DNA of 64,000 bases, taken from NCBI GenBank assembly GCA_902196205.1, contig CABIKM010000026.1, forward strand, positions 1-64,000. Direction: 5' to 3'. Positions 51,250-58,144 of this stretch are shown here, one piece after another. Position 1 is the stretch's first letter, and each line of letters begins with the position of its first letter. The notes below the pieces were generated by a model, which was not told the origin of the DNA, searched no databases, and was given only the letters and a program-made list of their open reading frames with translations. Source of the stretch: Candidatus Methylomirabilis lanthanidiphila (GTDB lineage: Bacteria; Methylomirabilota; Methylomirabilia; Methylomirabilales; Methylomirabilaceae). The translations under genes and the position numbers were made by a program.

Positions 51250-51254
51250 GATTC
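51238..51254. promoter_or_regulatory. Perfect palindrome over the -35 box (possible operator)
   Basis: GAATCTTGTCAAGATTC is a perfect 7-bp inverted repeat with a 3-bp centre, placed on the candidate -35 element of the minus-strand zinc-ribbon operon. Lack of a T-tract argues against a terminator. It might be bound by a dimeric repressor, possibly zinc- or stress-responsive. Confidence 0.45.
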
Positions 51255-51327
51255 GGTATACCTCGTGTTAACCGGCCACCAACATGGTGCTCCTCAACCT
51301 TTTCTTATTCTTACTATGTCGCGACAA

Positions 51328-52338
51328 TTACTGCATGAGCTGTCTGACGCCGGCACAGATGCGCTCTTTATTGGGAAGCACCTGGTCTTCTAAATGGCGG
51401 GCATACGGAATCGTTGTCTGGGTGCAAACGCGGGCGTACCCACAAGAGACACCGGCCTCCAACACGACCGCCGACAATTCACCTGACAAACCAAAACCTT
51501 TGTAGTCTTCGTCTACCACCAACAGACGCCCGGTCTGCGCGACCGCTTGGCAGACTGCCGCCTTGTCCAGCGGGGTGACGGTCCGCAAGTCCAGCACTCC
51601 TGCTGAAATGCCTTCCGACTCAAGAGCCTGCGCGGCTTCTGTCGCGCGATGCACCCCCACTCCCACGCTCACGATGGTGACATCACCTCCTGTCCGGCGG
51701 AGTACGGCCTTCCCGATGGGAAGGGGTTCCCACCTTTGCGGCACCGATCCTCTTGCGCCCTCTGCTGGAACATCATACTGAACCGTACGTCGCGCGCCTG
51801 AGCCAAGGAACTCCAGCCAGGTTTCTGATAGGAGCTTATGTTCAAGGAAGATCACCGGCCCATCATGCTGGAGCGCAGCCAGCATCAGGCCGCCCGCATC
51901 GGCCGGTGTGGATGGAACCAGCACGGTCAGCCCTGGAATGTGCGCCAGCCAACCCCACAAAGACTGTTCATGCTGTCCACTGTCGCCGTAACCGCCGCCA
52001 CACGGTGCACGCACCACAATGGGCACAGTCCATTTGCCGCCTGAAAACGCTTCGACTTTGGCGGCATGGTTGAGCAGGACATCCATGCACACCCCGAGAA
52101 AATCCACCATATAGACTTCCACGACTGGGCGTAAACCGGCCATTGCGGCGGACACGCCGGCTCCCAGAAAGGCGCTTTCGCTGATGGGGGTACCACGAAC
52201 GCGTTTGGGCCCAAATCGCACCAACAGGTTACGTCGCAGCAACGGGGTATCTTCACCAAAAAGAATGATACGCGAGTCGTCTGCCATGGCTTGGGCAAGT
52301 GCATCGTCAATGGCTTGTGTGAAAAACATGGTTCTCAT
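51328..52338 (-). CDS. 2-oxoacid dehydrogenase E1 component, beta subunit
   Basis: A 336-residue E1-beta protein (pyruvate, acetoin or branched-chain 2-oxoacid dehydrogenase). Features: DDSRIILFGEDTPLLRRNLL with the conserved E-D, RGTPISESAFLGAGVSAAMAG, and GGYGDSGQHEQSLWGWLAHI; the transketolase C-terminal domain ends GEDY-like DEDYKGFGLSGE. It overlaps the alpha gene by 4 bp (ATGA). No E2 or E3 gene is adjacent, so the substrate is not clear. Confidence 0.87.
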   Translation of the reverse strand: MRTMFFTQAIDDALAQAMADDSRIILFGEDTPLLRRNLLVRFGPKRVRGTPISESAFLGAGVSAAMAGLRPVVEVYMVDFLGVCMDVLLNHAAKVEAFSGGKWTVPIVVRAPCGGGYGDSGQHEQSLWGWLAHIPGLTVLVPSTPADAGGLMLAALQHDGPVIFLEHKLLSETWLEFLGSGARRTVQYDVPAEGARGSVPQRWEPLPIGKAVLRRTGGDVTIVSVGVGVHRATEAAQALESEGISAGVLDLRTVTPLDKAAVCQAVAQTGRLLVVDEDYKGFGLSGELSAVVLEAGVSCGYARVCTQTTIPYARHLEDQVLPNKERICAGVRQLMQ

Positions 52339-53363
52339 GATGGCGCCTGCGCCAGGGCAGATGCAAGCACATGGCTGACCTCTTTCTCAACCTGGTTCTC
52401 CAGCTCTTGCAAGCGCATCGAGTCCGACTGCAAGGTTGTGCGCGTACGGCGGACCGGGTCATGCACCGAATCTTGGCGTGGATCGCGCAACGTCGAGAGC
52501 ACCGCCGTACACACGGCTTGCAGTCCTGCCAGGCGCTCGCGCCACGCAGCCCCGGCGGGCCGCAAGAGTGATTGTGTGAGCGGGACGGCGATGACAGGTA
52601 TTTCTCTCAGCGGATCGCGCATGATCCGTAACAAGTGAAAGCCCAAAAAGTGGCCTTCAAGGTGGACACATCGGGCGTGCAGGAAGGTCGGCCCCTGACC
52701 GGAACGAGCGCGTTCAATCGCCGAATGGGCAGCCTCCCACACGTCCGCTATATCGCCGCCGTCCACGTTAACAGCGGGGATGCCCAGCCCGCGCGCTCGT
52801 TCGTTCACATTTCCACCGGTCACCCTGTCGGATTGAGTAGTGATGGCCCAACCGTCGTCCTTACAAACGAACAACACCGGCAAGTTCCACGCCGATGCCA
52901 GGTTCATCGATTCCATCAACATACCTTGGTTCATCGCCCCTTCACCAAAAAAGGCCACAGCGATCGCGCCCGGGCGCACGTATTGCGCCGAGAGCGCAAA
53001 GCCGGCGGCGGTTGGTCCTGCTGCGCCGACAATCCCCGAAGATACGGCGAGGTGCTCTCTCGAAAACAGGTGCATATGCCCGCCCGTACCGCCGCATAAC
53101 CCGTCCGAGTAGCCGAGCAGTTCGCGCAGGATCGCGACAGGGTCTATGCCGCGCATGAGCAGTGCCGCAGTGCCGCGATGATCCAACGCCATGGCGTCGC
53201 CTTCATGTAATTGGGTCACGACGCCCGCGATGATGGCTTCTTCGCCCGTTCCAAGGTGCATTTCGCCCGAGATCAGGCCATCATGCCAGAGTTTCGCAAT
53301 GGCTTCTTCGAGCAAACGACTTTTCAGCATGAGGCGATACAGGGACCACAATTCGGGTGGCAT
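52335..53363 (-). CDS. 2-oxoacid dehydrogenase E1 component, alpha subunit
   Basis: A 342-residue TPP-dependent E1-alpha. The HMHL motif (GGTGGHMHLF) binds TPP together with AVAFFGEGAMNQGMLMESMN (GDG/GEG..N motif), and KDDGWAITTQSDRVTGG is typical. The C-terminal 60 residues are extra compared with the minimum. It is the first gene of the pair; a weak TTGAAC..CATAAG lies upstream. Confidence 0.88.
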   Translation of the reverse strand: MPPELWSLYRLMLKSRLLEEAIAKLWHDGLISGEMHLGTGEEAIIAGVVTQLHEGDAMALDHRGTAALLMRGIDPVAILRELLGYSDGLCGGTGGHMHLFSREHLAVSSGIVGAAGPTAAGFALSAQYVRPGAIAVAFFGEGAMNQGMLMESMNLASAWNLPVLFVCKDDGWAITTQSDRVTGGNVNERARGLGIPAVNVDGGDIADVWEAAHSAIERARSGQGPTFLHARCVHLEGHFLGFHLLRIMRDPLREIPVIAVPLTQSLLRPAGAAWRERLAGLQAVCTAVLSTLRDPRQDSVHDPVRRTRTTLQSDSMRLQELENQVEKEVSHVLASALAQAPS

Positions 53364-53467
53364 AATGACCTTCTCTTCTACTTATGCATCCCGGTAAAGT
53401 GACGTTCAAAAGAAATACGTGAGCTTGCCCCTTGACTCGGCCCTGGCGAGCTCCGCGCGCAGTGCGC

Positions 53468-54811
53468 TCAGTGTGCAGGAACTTCGTCGGCGCGCCTTGC
53501 CCTGATCGCCTGAGCGCGGGTTTCCAGCCTTTCCGCTTCCATCGCCCGGTTTGTCTTCCGCAACAGGGCCGCGTATCGCTCCAGGGTCGCCGCCACCTCC
53601 GGGTGCTTCGGACCAAGGGTCTTTTCCTGAATCCCCAGCGCCCGTTGAAAGAGCGGCTCGGCCCGCGCGTATCGACCATCGCTGAGATACAGCCCCGCCA
53701 GGCCGTTGAGCCCTTTGGCCAGGTCCGGATGCGTCGGCCCCAAGACCTTGTCCCAGACTGCCAACGCTCGCGTGTAGAGCGATTCGGCCTCGGTAGGCTT
53801 ACCTTGATCCCGGTACAGAGTAGCCAGGTCGTTGAGACCCTTAGCCACACCCGGATGGTCAGGTCCGAGCGTCTTCTCGTAGATGGCCAGCGCCCGCTTG
53901 AGGAGCGGCTCAGCCTCGGCGTACCTGCGTTGCAGGTAGTAGAGCACCCCCAGCTCATTGCGGATCGTACCCACATCCTGGTGGTCCGTGCCAAAGGCCT
54001 TCTCCTGAATCGCGAGCGCCCGCTTGAGGAGAGGCTCGGCGTGCGCATACTCCGTGCGCACGCGGTAGAGCGAGGCCAGGTTCGTAAGGCTTGTGGCTGT
54101 GCCCGGATGGTCAGGTCCGAGCGTCTTCTCGTGGATGGCCAGCGCCCGCTTGAGGAGTGGCTCGGCGTTGGCAAACCTTCCTTTGGCACGATGCAGCAGC
54201 GCCAGGTTGTTCAGGGTCCGAGCGGTTTCCGGATTCTCCGGTCCCAGCGTCTTCTCGTAGATGGCGAGGGCTCGCCTAAGCAGCGGCTCAGCCTCGGAGT
54301 ATTTGCCCTTCCGGTACAAGAGCACTCCAAGATCGTTGAGACTCCTGGCCGTATCCGAATTGTCCTGGCCCAGGGTCTTCTGTCGGGTCGCCAAGGCCTT
54401 TCTGAAAAGGGGCTCGGCCTCCGCGTATCGCGCCTGGGCGTTGTAGACCTCCGCCAGGCTATTGAGCGTCCGAACTACCTCCCGGTGGTTTGCGCCCAGG
54501 GTCTTATCACGAATAGCGAGAACCCGCTTCAGCAGCGTCTCCGCCTCGGCGTACCGCCCCTGGATTTCGTAAAGCACCCCCAGGTTGTGGAGCGTACCGA
54601 CCAGACGAGGGTCTTCAGATCCGAATCGCTCCGCCTCCTTGAGGGCCGCCGTAAGATGCGTCCCTGCCTCGGTATAGTGGCCTTGCTGAAAGGCCCGGAC
54701 CGCCGCGGAGGTATAGGTGCCCCAGTCGGTCTCTTGAGCGCTGACCTGGGCAGCGGTCCACAGTAGTGCGCTCAATCCTGCTATCGGCCACCACCGAGTC
54801 TGACTTCGCAT
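53468..54811 (-). CDS. Secreted TPR protein with ten 42-residue repeats
   Basis: A 447-residue protein. A signal peptide (WWPIAGLSALLWTAAQVSA, about 7-25) is followed by ten TPR units of 42 residues, kinesin-light-chain type, with the core [L]xNLGxLYxxxGRYAEAEPLLK, RALAIYEKTLGPDHP. Protein-protein scaffold in the periplasm or outer envelope. The DNA repeats nearly exactly: 53858-53906 and 54110-54158 are almost identical. Function cannot be assigned. Confidence 0.85.
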   Translation of the reverse strand: MRSQTRWWPIAGLSALLWTAAQVSAQETDWGTYTSAAVRAFQQGHYTEAGTHLTAALKEAERFGSEDPRLVGTLHNLGVLYEIQGRYAEAETLLKRVLAIRDKTLGANHREVVRTLNSLAEVYNAQARYAEAEPLFRKALATRQKTLGQDNSDTARSLNDLGVLLYRKGKYSEAEPLLRRALAIYEKTLGPENPETARTLNNLALLHRAKGRFANAEPLLKRALAIHEKTLGPDHPGTATSLTNLASLYRVRTEYAHAEPLLKRALAIQEKAFGTDHQDVGTIRNELGVLYYLQRRYAEAEPLLKRALAIYEKTLGPDHPGVAKGLNDLATLYRDQGKPTEAESLYTRALAVWDKVLGPTHPDLAKGLNGLAGLYLSDGRYARAEPLFQRALGIQEKTLGPKHPEVAATLERYAALLRKTNRAMEAERLETRAQAIRARRADEVPAH

Positions 54812-54889
54812 CTCGACCTCCTGGGTTCAAGACCAATGGACGCCGGAAGATACAGGCGGCGCCTTCATTGGCTGGTCAACCAGGAGTCA

Positions 54890-55102
54890 CTATAGAAGTG
54901 CTTTGAACTGCTCGATCGTCAGGCCGGCATCCACCACGAGCCCGCCCATGGTGTAGGCGTTTACCGGATTGTGACGCGGGATGGTGATGAGGCGGATACC
55001 ATCGGACATCACAATGTGCTTGCCTTCACGAATGATCCGAAAGCCCGCCTTCTCAAAGGCGCGAACCGCGTGGAGATGACCGATGCCCGGCAGCTTCGGC
55101 AC
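54890..55102 (-). CDS. hicA: HicA-like toxin
   Basis: A 70-residue HicA/YcfA-like protein: LHAVRAFEKAGFRIIREGKH and VMSDGIRLITIPRHNPVNAY. The catalytic histidine is in REGKHIVM, replacing the usual GSH. It is the second gene of an antitoxin-toxin pair (HicB first, 2-bp gap). Confidence 0.75.
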   Translation of the reverse strand: MPKLPGIGHLHAVRAFEKAGFRIIREGKHIVMSDGIRLITIPRHNPVNAYTMGGLVVDAGLTIEQFKALL

Positions 55103-55104
55103 GG

Positions 55105-55302
55105 CTAGACGAGCACCTCGACTTCGCGAGTCTCCTGGTCCTTCATCACCGCGTTACGGGCTTCCAAATACTCCCGAATGGCCTCGCGGATATTGGCAAG
55201 GGCCTCTTCCTCTGTTTTCCCCTGCGACCAGCACCCCGGTAAGCCGGGGCACGAGACGCTAAAACCCTCTTCAGACTCCCGGAGAACAACCTTGTACTTC
55301 AT
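55105..55302 (-). CDS. hicB: HicB-type antitoxin
   Basis: A 65-residue HicB fold: VVLRESEEGFSVSCPGLPGC, followed by WSQGKTEEEALANIREAIRE. It lies just upstream of the HicA-like toxin. Short form without a C-terminal DNA-binding domain. Confidence 0.8.
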   Translation of the reverse strand: MKYKVVLRESEEGFSVSCPGLPGCWSQGKTEEEALANIREAIREYLEARNAVMKDQETREVEVLV

Positions 55303-55467
55303 ACTCCTCCCACCTTTCTATCGTCACGCAGGCCTACCTCTGTACGACGGCCCATTGCTCGGAAACTTTACCCGGCCCAGTTCTGCCGATGGCCTGTCGT
55401 CGCCCTACTATGTCGTTCAGCCGCAATTTGAAACGCAAGCGGACGACAGCCACGCGCCGAAGCTCCG

Positions 55468-55707
55468 TCAGGCAACGTTGAGCATCTTATTGGCGTAGTC
55501 TCTCCCACTGGTGGCAGGGGGCAGCGGTTTGCCGTCCTTCCTGTACAGCGCTATCGTTTCGTCCACAATCTCGCATAACTCCGCGAACACCGCTTGCTCA
55601 TCGTTTCCGTGGCAGCCTCCATACAACAGCCCCGGACAACTCCCGACAAAGCACTGATCTTCATCCGACCATTCGACAATTTTGACGTACCGGGCGCTCT
55701 CTTTCAT
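55468..55707 (-). CDS. HicB-like protein without an adjacent intact toxin
   Basis: A 79-residue HicB-like protein: YVKIVEWSDEDQCFVGSCPG has the beta-hairpin and SCPG motif, and LYGGCHGNDEQAVFAELCEI extends it. No HicA partner is seen next to it; the frame at 55704-55910 overlaps by 4 bp but does not look like HicA. Confidence 0.65.
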   Translation of the reverse strand: MKESARYVKIVEWSDEDQCFVGSCPGLLYGGCHGNDEQAVFAELCEIVDETIALYRKDGKPLPPATSGRDYANKMLNVA

Positions 55708-55910
55708 CGTTGAGACTCCTCAATGGCCGCCAGAACGTCCTCATTGAGGACAACTGCGGACGGCGTAGCAGCCCAAAGCGGTATTGAAACGGCCGGTCTA
55801 ACCTCAAGCGAGTGTGCCTCGGCGCTGTCCGTTATGCCACCTGGTAAATCGCCGGTCGAAAGGACGGCTTGGGGATCGGCTTTTTTGCTGCTCGTGCCGC
55901 TTTGAGCCAA
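55704..55910 (-). pseudogene. Doubtful ORF, perhaps a degraded toxin partner
   Basis: A 68-codon frame with a TTG start, Ser/Ala-rich N-terminus and a better C-terminus (PSAVVLNEDVLAAIEESQR). It overlaps the next HicB by 79 bp on the same strand, so the N-terminal half is probably not real. It might be a decayed partner between two HicB genes. Confidence 0.25.
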
Positions 55911-56050
55911 GCCGCTTTCGCCTTCAGGACTTCCGTCAGCGCTTCGCTCGGGGTGTCACCGAACGCAGAGCAGAACTTCAAGTCGGGGATATCAGCGATG
56001 TAGCCGCCGTCTTCATCGCTGTAGAAGATGTTGATGTGGTAATCCTTCAT
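55832..56050 (-). CDS. HicB-like protein, second orphan
   Basis: A 72-residue HicB-like protein (HINIFYSDEDGGYIADIPDL and FCSAFGDTPSEALTEVLKAK), close in design to the 34685 protein. The LPGC motif is replaced by LKFC. No HicA is adjacent. Confidence 0.65.
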   Translation of the reverse strand: MKDYHINIFYSDEDGGYIADIPDLKFCSAFGDTPSEALTEVLKAKAAWLKAARAAKKPIPKPSFRPAIYQVA

Positions 56051-56116
56051 CCGTGTTCACCCAACGTCAAATTATACCTCTGAACGGGGCGTTGAGCGAC
56101 GCTAAAGACGTATGGG

Positions 56117-56515
56117 TCAGATGAACACGGCGGGTGACACCTGAAATCGCTTGGCCAAAAGACGAATCTGGCGAATATTTAATGCTCGCTTGCCGTTCAG
56201 GATTTCAGACACCACGCCCTGAGAGCCGATCTCCGACAAGTCCGATTGGTTCAAACCATGCTCTTCCATGAAAAACCGAAGCACGTCGGCTCCAGTACAT
56301 TCAGGCATGGGATGATGTGTTTCCTCGTACACGTGGATCAGCGTACCTAGCGTGTCTAGCAGGCCGTACAGGGGATGGCGTTCGTTGTCACCGATTTCAT
56401 CCAACAGCTCATTGAGCCGCTTAATCGCGGAGTCGTATTCGCGCTCATTGCGAATGGTGAGGATAGGGTGGATATTGGCCCAATGACCTTGGATGTCTTT
56501 TGTGAGCGTGCTCAT
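56117..56515 (-). CDS. higA: HigA-type antitoxin with HTH domain
   Basis: A 132-residue protein. N-terminal region IRNEREYDSAIKRLNELLDE and LLDTLGTLIHVYEETHHPMP match the HigA long-form; the C-terminal XRE-type HTH is FFMEEHGLNQSDLSEIGSQG and VVSEILNGKRALNIRQIRLL. It should neutralise the HigB toxin and repress the operon. It overlaps the toxin by 4 bp (ATGA); the toxin is upstream, as is usual for HigBA. Confidence 0.87.
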   Translation of the reverse strand: MSTLTKDIQGHWANIHPILTIRNEREYDSAIKRLNELLDEIGDNERHPLYGLLDTLGTLIHVYEETHHPMPECTGADVLRFFMEEHGLNQSDLSEIGSQGVVSEILNGKRALNIRQIRLLAKRFQVSPAVFI

Positions 56516-56739
56516 TGCTTCCAGCTTCCTTTGTCATATTCTTGGTGCGTCAGAACATGACGAATGTATAGCGTACCCCGGTTAAAGTGAATGACCGCGA
56601 TCAGCCGATATTTGTTGCCACCGATATTGAACACAATCCATTTGCCGACTTTGTCAACCGATGGAAAAGTCATTCGCAATTCACCAAAATCGCGAAAGGT
56701 GGTATGCTGCACGATTTTGAGCCAGCGCGTCAGCGCCAA
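56512..56739 (-). CDS. higB: HigB-type toxin, N-terminally truncated
   Basis: A 75-residue RelE-fold mRNA interferase: TFRDFGELRMTFPSVDKVGK, VFNIGGNKYRLIAVIHFNRG and LYIRHVLTHQEYDKGSW are the HigB core. About 20 residues that normally precede WLKIV are absent. The frame has a TAA four codons before the TTG at 56739, so the missing part is not in frame. The truncation might inactivate the toxin. It abuts a HAD remnant at 56744. Confidence 0.8.
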   Translation of the reverse strand: MALTRWLKIVQHTTFRDFGELRMTFPSVDKVGKWIVFNIGGNKYRLIAVIHFNRGTLYIRHVLTHQEYDKGSWKQ

Positions 56740-56743
56740 TTTG

Positions 56744-56848
56744 CTATATGGTTAGAAACACAGGCCGCTGCGCCTCCCGGATTCCGGCCTTCCAACCGAT
56801 CAACGTACCGTAGCAATCAAGAGTCAGCAATCCACGATTATCGAAGTT
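56744..56848 (-). pseudogene. 5' remnant of a haloacid dehalogenase (HAD) family gene
   Basis: On the minus strand, NFDNRGLLTLDCYGTLIGWK ends in a stop after a further 14 codons. LTLDCYGTLI is the HAD motif I (here with DCYGTLI rather than DxDGTLI). Only the first about 34 residues remain; the rest has been replaced by the HigB gene. It marks an insertion or deletion breakpoint. Confidence 0.55.
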
Positions 56849-56942
56849 CAGCTTTTGTTGTCCGAAAACGACGGGGAGTATAACCGTCAAACGCACATGG
56901 TCAGCCGCGTATGTCTTCTTGCGTATCGGTTTCATGTGCGAG

Positions 56943-57743
56943 TTAGCTCGTGGGTTGCGGTTCACACTCTTCGCACGCTTCGAGGATTTGCTCAGCCTTC
57001 TTGGCGAGGTCGACCAGCCCGGGCCAACGGCCTGTGATGATATCTTGCGCATGGGCGAGTTCGTTTCTAAGCTGTTCGAGCTCTTCCAGAATCGACTCGG
57101 CAGTGTTGCTTGAGGTGAAGCCGATGGCGCTATGAAGCTCAGCCGTCTTAAGGATAATAGTTCTCTTGTCTGCAAACTGAAGACAGTCTGCAAGATCGAT
57201 AGCTTCATTCCTCCGCTGCCTGTCCTCTAAAAGCTGACGAGCCTTATCCAGCCGCTCTTTCGAGATCATACTCTTCCACGACTCTTGCGGGTAGACAGCA
57301 CGGATCAGCCGAAGAAACTGCATTTCGATAAGCGAGACAATACCAAAAAGCCACATGCGAACGGGTGCCTTCTGCAGATCTCCTTTTGTGACGATAGCCC
57401 AAACCTTCCCCATCACACGAACGAAAATGCGAGGCGACTGAGCGAGTAGTTGCAGCGCCCCAAGGATAGAACTTGATTCATCCAGTAGAAGCTGCTCTTC
57501 GAAACACCTAAGGTGCTGTTCGAGCGTGCCCTCGCAAAGCTGAGCGCGCTCGACATATCCTACGATAAGGCCGTTCCGTCTGACACCGACCACATCGAAG
57601 TCCTTGTCCTCCATGAAGTCTCTAACCTCACTTGCGAGCCGTACTGCATCAAACGATATAAAAGGTTCTGCAATATACTTGACCGAAACGCTCCGATCGA
57701 AAAGCTCGCGTAAGCCCCGAAGTGATGATTTGAGATGCTTCAT
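56943..57743 (-). CDS. Protein with CBS-like N-terminus and HEPN-type RNELAH motif
   Basis: A 266-residue protein of unknown function. Residues about 35-125 look like a CBS pair (FDVVGVRRNGLIVGYVERAQ and VMGKVWAIVTKGDLQKAPVR). The C-terminal helical half ends with LEELEQLRNELAHAQDI, where RNELAH is the R-x4-H catalytic signature of HEPN ribonucleases. The surrounding genes are toxin-antitoxin pairs, so an RNase-type effector regulated by a nucleotide-binding CBS module is a reasonable hypothesis. Confidence 0.55.
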   Translation of the reverse strand: MKHLKSSLRGLRELFDRSVSVKYIAEPFISFDAVRLASEVRDFMEDKDFDVVGVRRNGLIVGYVERAQLCEGTLEQHLRCFEEQLLLDESSSILGALQLLAQSPRIFVRVMGKVWAIVTKGDLQKAPVRMWLFGIVSLIEMQFLRLIRAVYPQESWKSMISKERLDKARQLLEDRQRRNEAIDLADCLQFADKRTIILKTAELHSAIGFTSSNTAESILEELEQLRNELAHAQDIITGRWPGLVDLAKKAEQILEACEECEPQPTS

Positions 57744-58144
57744 TAGAACTTATCTGGACACAATGATCCGGTGCCTAAACACAATTAGACTGATTCCCCA
57801 CTATTCCGACTCTTGATACCTTTCAGAAGTGGGGTAATCTTCCCGCCTTTTCCGGCACTTGTCAAGCTTCGCCAGGACCTCCTCACCCCAACCCTCTCCG
57901 CACCCAGAGGGTACCCGGGAGGCGAGGGGATGTGATAAAAACGCCGCTCCGCGCCGAGAGGGTACCGGGGAGACGAAGGGGAGAGTTTGTCAAAGACGGT
58001 GAGATCGCTTCGCTGTGCTCGCAATGACGGAAACCTCCGGGAAGGCAACGACTCTTGACAGAGGTGGGGGGATTTGGTAACTGCTTACGGGAGATGGTGG
58101 TAAGTACCGGAAGGTGATGGGTGGTAGAAGACACGAGGTGGACG
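57744..58144. repeat. 401-bp gap with short direct repeats
   Basis: No gene is seen. Two imperfect copies of a 36-38 bp unit, CTCCGCACCCAGAGGGTACC..GGGAGGCGAGGGGA, lie at 57895-57930 and 57945-57982. A further GAGATCGCTTCGCTGTGCTC then GCAATGACGG (58001-58030) matches a common dispersed intergenic repeat. The start of the gap is AT-rich. Confidence 0.6.

Follow-up and report, generated by a model that had tools for sequence, protein, structure and literature searches.

Proteins in which CBS domains are joined to a HEPN domain, with or without an HD phosphohydrolase domain, were recorded in a 2013 survey of HEPN proteins, which suggested for them a possible role in nucleotide-responsive control of RNA stability (Anantharaman et al. 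2013, PMC3710099). In the same survey, 'CBS and HD (alr3009), active' is listed for the Swt1/Abi2 HEPN family, and the HEPN domain of eukaryotic Swt1 itself is described as inactive (PMC3710099). A one-protein system composed of CBS and HEPN domains, DS-11, was reported in 2026 in the DefensePredictor work to protect E. coli MG1655 from phage; the protection was abolished by the Y157A mutation in the CBS domain or by HEPN catalytic mutations (PMC13092281). It is through DS-11 that CBS domains have only recently been shown to act in phage defence, and its adenine ligand, according to that report, remains to be discovered (PMC13092281).

Here, we describe a CBS-HEPN gene in a 64,000-nucleotide stretch of DNA from Candidatus Methylomirabilis lanthanidiphila (contig CABIKM010000026.1, positions 1 to 64,000; hereafter referred to as the window). 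The initial annotation, made from the letters of the window, had read it as a regulated RNase with a CBS-like N-terminus and a HEPN-like C-terminus, a possible defence or stress effector. The open reading frame runs exactly where that reading had placed it (Table 1). Its ATG start choice is supported by L002, the nearest of its relatives and found in a Rhodospirillales MAG, whose product begins with the identical peptide, MKHLKSSL. Comparison of the window gene with its closest relative (57% identity) gave identities of 65/79/31% at codon positions 1/2/3, a pattern indicating that the protein is under purifying selection. The gene is single-copy in its own genome.

Table 1. Features of the CBS-HEPN gene and of the adjacent toxin-antitoxin pair; residue numbers are those of the 266-aa protein.
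Feature	Position in the window	Strand	Basis
CBS-HEPN protein, 266 aa, ATG start, intact	56943..57743	−	Open reading frame; start shared with L002
Tandem CBS pair (Bateman module), residues 16-125	57369..57698	−	AlphaFold model, PDB matches, Pfam CBS in 8/15 relatives
T-K-G-D, residues 119-122, second CBS	57378..57389	−	T/S at 119 in 14/15 rows, D/E/N at 122 in 15/15
HEPN domain, residues 126-259, all helical	56967..57368	−	Pfam, profile-profile match, helices in model
RMWLFG, residues 129-134, signature at CBS/HEPN junction	57342..57359	−	R129 to G134 invariant in 11/11 bacterial rows
DCLQFADK, residues 186-193, family signature	57165..57188	−	Invariant in 11/11 bacterial rows
RNELAH, residues 226-231, putative HEPN R-x4-H catalytic motif	57051..57068	−	R and H invariant in 15/15 rows
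HigB-type toxin	56512..56739	−	PF09907 E 8.3e-30; PADLOC PD-Lambda-2_A E 2.6e-17
HigA-type HTH antitoxin	56117..56515	−	PF01381 E 4.5e-7; PADLOC PD-Lambda-2_B E 1.1e-20

One scan of species genomes yielded 12 relatives, 58% to 32% identical to the window protein except for L013, which shows 61% identity over the C-terminal 98 residues only. They were found in MAGs of Rhodospirillales, Acidobacteria, Planctomycetes, Anaerolineae, Gammaproteobacteria, Deltaproteobacteria, Nitrospirae and rumen bacteria. Two of the 12, L008 and L013, are broken genes and were left out of all alignments. Plasmid records contributed 8 further relatives, all of them haloarchaeal and 23-27% identical; by tblastn, haloarchaeal members can be connected with the window protein at E values down to 3e-16 (1e-11 for L016, but only 0.4 for L074). 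The fold alignments were built without the haloarchaeal rows; L006 lacks its N-terminus, L010 and L012 were trimmed C-terminally for alignments A2-A4, and alignment A5 was without L073, which is truncated by an IS. Seven residues (F133, E140, W156, Q189, F190, R226 and H231) never vary over 15 aligned rows. An artefact or a chance motif was rejected, since the family is conserved. A phage-borne gene was likewise rejected, as no viral relatives were found: phage records held no relative, two weak matches (E 0.3-0.4) covering a CBS-length stretch; viral contigs, scanned twice, gave pattern matches and no relative; and a Foldseek search against viral models returned nothing at E<=0.001, the best match being a giant-virus CBS protein.

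The AlphaFold model of the window protein, made from an 11-row alignment (mean pLDDT 88.7, pTM 0.80), shows a tandem CBS pair followed by helices. When it was compared with PDB structures, solved CBS pairs aligned to residues 15-136 with Z scores of up to 14.1; 2yzi, the best of them, superimposed with an rmsd of 3.4 A over 118 residues, and 1pbj with a Z of 13.9 and an rmsd of 2.3 A over 107 residues. At the sequence level, Pfam CBS matched 8 of the 15 family members, the best at 1e-6, and the window protein had no match of its own at E<=1. These results bear out the CBS-like N-terminus proposed in the initial annotation. The matched PDB structures include binders of c-di-AMP, AMP, ATP, Ap4A or S-adenosylmethionine, and the c-di-AMP binders OpuCA and DarB are among the closest solved CBS pairs. 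The second CBS domain contains T119-K-G-D122, which we take to be a nucleotide-contact motif of the T/S-x-x-D type. The ligand of the CBS pair is probably a nucleotide, either of the adenine type or a second messenger.

The C-terminal half was modelled as helices at high confidence; the PDB matches listed for the whole model were filled by CBS chains, with no HEPN chain among them, and say nothing on this half. Pfam HEPN_Swt1 matches residues 146-235 (E 5.9e-5, 23.8 bits, which is below the curated cut-off of 27.5) and is found at E<=1 in 9 of the 15 family members. When the family was aligned by hhalign to Swt1-type HEPN segments, the probability was 91.5 and E 8.8e-7, R and H falling in matching columns; the comparison set consisted of five segments fetched from other genomes of the phylum, and since these had been found with the same Pfam model, the Pfam and hhalign tests are only partly independent. 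The haloarchaeal HEPN halves gave a profile match at a probability of 97.6 (E 3.7e-12). In the model, RNELAH closes the helix of residues 212-231, the position at a helix end that is expected of the HEPN motif (R-x4-6-H, in which N or D usually follows the R), and in the profile alignment DCLQFADK falls on the 'YADF' stretch of Swt1-type HEPN domains. A phmmer search of PDB sequences with the window protein gave no match, and a HEPN-profile search of the same sequences returned 29 distinct entries at E<=10, of which the best had E 0.37 and none could be recognised as HEPN; no solved structure related in sequence to the HEPN half came to light. The helical model and the Pfam and profile matches thus speak for a HEPN fold, upholding the other half of the initial reading, and by motif and profile relation the window protein can be placed in the Swt1/Abi2-type HEPN superfamily.

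A nucleotide-regulated RNase is the best reading of this domain combination, and a defence role is plausible. With moderate confidence, we take the gene to encode a one-gene, nucleotide-gated dimeric RNase that would arrest growth under phage attack or comparable stress. In such a mechanism, a change in a nucleotide signal would lead the CBS pair to bind or lose its ligand; the resulting change in its shape would rearrange the dimer and bring two HEPN domains together into a composite R/N/H active site; and the HEPN dimer would then cut RNA, either tRNA or mRNA, and growth would stop, most likely under phage attack or comparable stress. The defence role is considered plausible because DS-11 is a validated antiphage protein (PMC13092281) and defence-rich stretches surround archaeal relatives. 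The suggested antiphage purpose draws on DS-11, on the mobile setting of the gene and on the archaeal contexts, and it is weakened by the mixed contexts of the bacterial relatives.

Most of the 12 bacterial loci are outside defence islands, and no recurrent partner gene, such as the cognate antitoxin of a type II toxin, was found beside the relatives in them. An ion-transport gene lies next door on the same strand in 4 of the 12, a count that came from mechanical ORF calls, with 10 ORFs picked by eye for Pfam and a SulP count as the only background: a SulP+STAS+cNMP gene 50 bp upstream in L002, a SulP+STAS gene 55 bp downstream in L011, a Na+/H+ exchanger gene 52 bp downstream in L004 and an MscS channel gene about 100 bp upstream in L006. 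SulP scored over the cut-off in 14 of 95 phylum genomes and is therefore not ubiquitous. This adjacency to transporters is new here and is a lead, not a result.

The main rival to the gated growth-arresting RNase is a stress regulator that acts on the cell's own RNA and is not a defence gene. Its CBS pair would read an adenine nucleotide, a c-di-AMP-like messenger or an alarmone reporting energy or ion status, and its HEPN domain would trim particular transcripts, for example those of the neighbouring transporters. The ion-transport neighbours, with SulP as infrequent as it is in the phylum, argue for this explanation, as do the resemblance of the CBS pair to OpuCA and DarB and the presence of an alarmone-hydrolase domain in two relatives (see below). 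However, the window gene has no adjoining transporter and sits in a toxin-antitoxin hot spot; in the other 8 loci no transporter was found among the ORFs looked up or recognised, which were chosen after viewing; and, with thousands of gene families, chance alone would be expected to make some neighbour recur. We regard a regulator of this kind as rather unlikely.

The two relatives in question, L007 (7410-8768) and L009 (636-1985), both from gammaproteobacterial MAGs, have an N-terminal HD domain fused to the CBS-HEPN part. Pfam HD_4 matches this domain with E 4.6e-19 in L007 and 1.5e-16 in L009. The model of L009 (mean pLDDT 86.4, pTM 0.55) found its best match in human MESH1 (Z 24.0, 1.7 A over 171 residues, 33% identity), and also matched Pseudomonas SAH (Z 22.6) and Corynebacterium RelH (Z 22.5). 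HD and ED motifs, presumably the metal-site residues of an alarmone hydrolase, can be seen by eye in the fused domain of both proteins. By fold (MESH1) and sequence (HD_4), the fused HD domain is thus a small alarmone hydrolase, an assignment that is new here; a search of full-text literature, outside which most subscription papers lie, found no description of the HD domain of CBS-HEPN proteins as an alarmone hydrolase. The window protein lacks such a domain, and its genome contains one HD_4 match, lying in an open frame of 767 aa, a size that fits RelA/SpoT.

Of all the leads, these fusions interest us most, since they hint at the identity of the CBS ligand: with the CBS-HEPN unit fused to an alarmone hydrolase, that ligand may be (p)ppGpp, (p)ppApp, NADPH or PAPS, that is, a pyrophosphorylated or 3'-phosphorylated nucleotide. 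Such fusions offer a concrete class of candidates for a DS-11-type ligand. In its full form, this idea would give an alarmone-controlled family of HEPN ribonucleases in which the hydrolase would serve as a built-in off switch and the stand-alone form in the window would be reset by RelA/SpoT; we consider the idea as a whole, its ligands included, doubtful. If it were true, RNA cleavage, and possibly defence as well, would be directly linked to the stringent response.

Conservation of the putative active site bears on a different alternative, in which the HEPN domain is catalytically dead, binding RNA or other proteins, and the CBS pair serves as the switch. The inactive eukaryotic Swt1 domain (PMC3710099) provides a precedent, but R226 and H231, of the motif that the initial annotation had singled out, are invariant in all 15 aligned relatives, a conservation not due to chance; N227, the N after the R, is kept in 14 of the 15, and the HEPN domain of the CBS/HD protein alr3009 is marked active in the survey (PMC3710099). 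A dead domain thus appears improbable, and a putatively catalytic one remains the preferred reading.

The haloarchaeal relatives are placed in defence-rich stretches, with restriction enzymes, AAA ATPases, ADP-ribosylglycohydrolases and transposases among their neighbours. A divergent gene of ~118 aa faces the CBS-HEPN gene and is homologous in 8 of 8 records; a second copy is also accompanied by a gene of the same length. Loci with the divergent gene are L014-L017, L070-L073 and L083, and four have a ~90-aa gene behind; the one divergent gene scanned, that of L014, had no Pfam match. In L074 (Haladaptatus), CBS and HEPN-like parts are joined to a long N-terminal part, which by eye we take to be methyltransferase-like, and Pfam finds only the CBS part. 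This relative, by genes for a UvrD-type helicase and a PD-(D/E)XK protein, lies next to the BREX-5 genes pglX, pglZ, brxA and brxB, an association that is also new here. At the locus of its nearest plasmid relative, in Natrinema, a restriction-endonuclease gene lies three genes upstream, and no annotated BREX gene was found in the 20.7 kb examined. L074 (2191-3663) and L082 (9287-10702), both on haloarchaeal plasmids, have the same layout of ~470-490 aa, with a long N-terminal part, CBS and a HEPN-like part; proteins of this type are a possible new defence component.

Within the genus, the CBS-HEPN gene is present in 1 of 15 genomes, and across the phylum in 1 of 95. Its G+C content is 51.7%, vs 59.6% for the window; its GC3 is 56.6%, vs 67.6-79.7% in four neighbouring core genes, whose G+C is 60-64%, and the G+C of HigB is 46.9%. 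The four other genus genomes included in the site comparison (4 of 14; G023, G024, G025 and G032) have the same site without the CBS-HEPN gene. The hot spot spans 51250-58053, and its flanks are ~140 bp apart in G023; therefore, ~6.8 kb is accessory, holding a TPP-dehydrogenase-like gene, a TPR gene and a toxin-antitoxin run. By these computations, the CBS-HEPN gene is accessory and horizontally acquired. The toxin-antitoxin neighbours claimed in the initial annotation are real, Pfam recognising HigB, its HTH partner, HicB and HicA; PADLOC relates the HigBA pair to PD-Lambda-2 and gave no match for the CBS-HEPN protein.

The HicA/HicB pair is at 54890-55302 on the minus strand. Two further HicB-like ORFs without HicA, possible orphan antitoxins, are on the same strand at 55468-55707, which has no Pfam match, and at 55832-56050, which is Pfam-supported. 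Between HigB and the CBS-HEPN gene, at 56740-56942 on the minus strand, a frame reads LLTLDCYGTLIGWKAGIREA; from its appearance by eye, we assume it to be an N-terminal remnant of a HAD-type hydrolase. The HigA stretch is present in G025, and the stretch of HigB and the CBS-HEPN gene is absent; in that genome (L058, 5296-6036), HigA occurs without HigB in an in-frame fusion to a trypsin-type protease-like fragment, at the site that HigB and the CBS-HEPN gene occupy in the window. HigA adjoins a ParE-type toxin in G024.

A further alternative makes the CBS-HEPN protein a toxin that works with the neighbouring HigBA pair or with a partner protein. Such a toxin-antitoxin role is suggested by the position of its gene, which shares the strand of HigBA and lies 203 bp upstream of it, and by the divergent haloarchaeal gene, but is very improbable: HigBA is already a complete pair, the bacterial relatives have no recurring adjacent partner, and a partnership with HigBA was rejected because G024 and G025 keep HigA without the CBS-HEPN gene.

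The preferred reading, a nucleotide-gated RNase, invites comparison with DS-11, which was made through NCBIfam NF053863 (305 positions, cut-off 260 bits). At E<=1, this model gave no match in any of the 11 bacterial rows, of which the window protein is one; in alignment A1 it matched 4 of the 15 members at this threshold, each of them haloarchaeal. Of nine haloarchaeal proteins, eight matched with E 6.3e-7 to 0.01, and L071 did not; the haloarchaeal members scored 15-29 bits against the 260 bits of the family cut-off. With L016 (E 2e-5) and L074 (E 6.3e-7) the match is collinear over CBS and HEPN. In the phylum, the matches listed are stretches of the CBS part, all under the cut-off. Like the window protein, DS-11 is one protein with CBS followed by HEPN; its model has ~65-80 further N-terminal positions before the aligned part, and because of gaps in the model and the numbering of DS-11, the counterpart of Y157 in the window protein is ambiguous from model coordinates. 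The missing bacterial matches and the weak collinear haloarchaeal ones indicate that the window protein is a remote cousin of DS-11 and not a member of its family. Both domains of the earlier interpretation are real; its suggestion of a defence role loses strength with the window protein outside the DS-11 model and the bacterial relatives mostly outside defence islands.

Nucleotide-gated HEPN proteins, if the family is read in this way, extend far outside the DS-11 group and occur in many bacterial phyla and on haloarchaeal plasmids. The CBS-HEPN architecture is already known, and the window protein adds a real, well-conserved member to it. By description, the CBS-HEPN and CBS-HD-HEPN proteins of the Abi2/Swt1 group (PMC3710099; alr3009, Pelobacter propionicus) have the same domains and belong to the same HEPN family. 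The survey describes the HD domain of such proteins as a phosphohydrolase (PMC3710099); we place the fused HD domain of L007 and L009 among the small alarmone hydrolases (MESH1, RelH and PaSAH).
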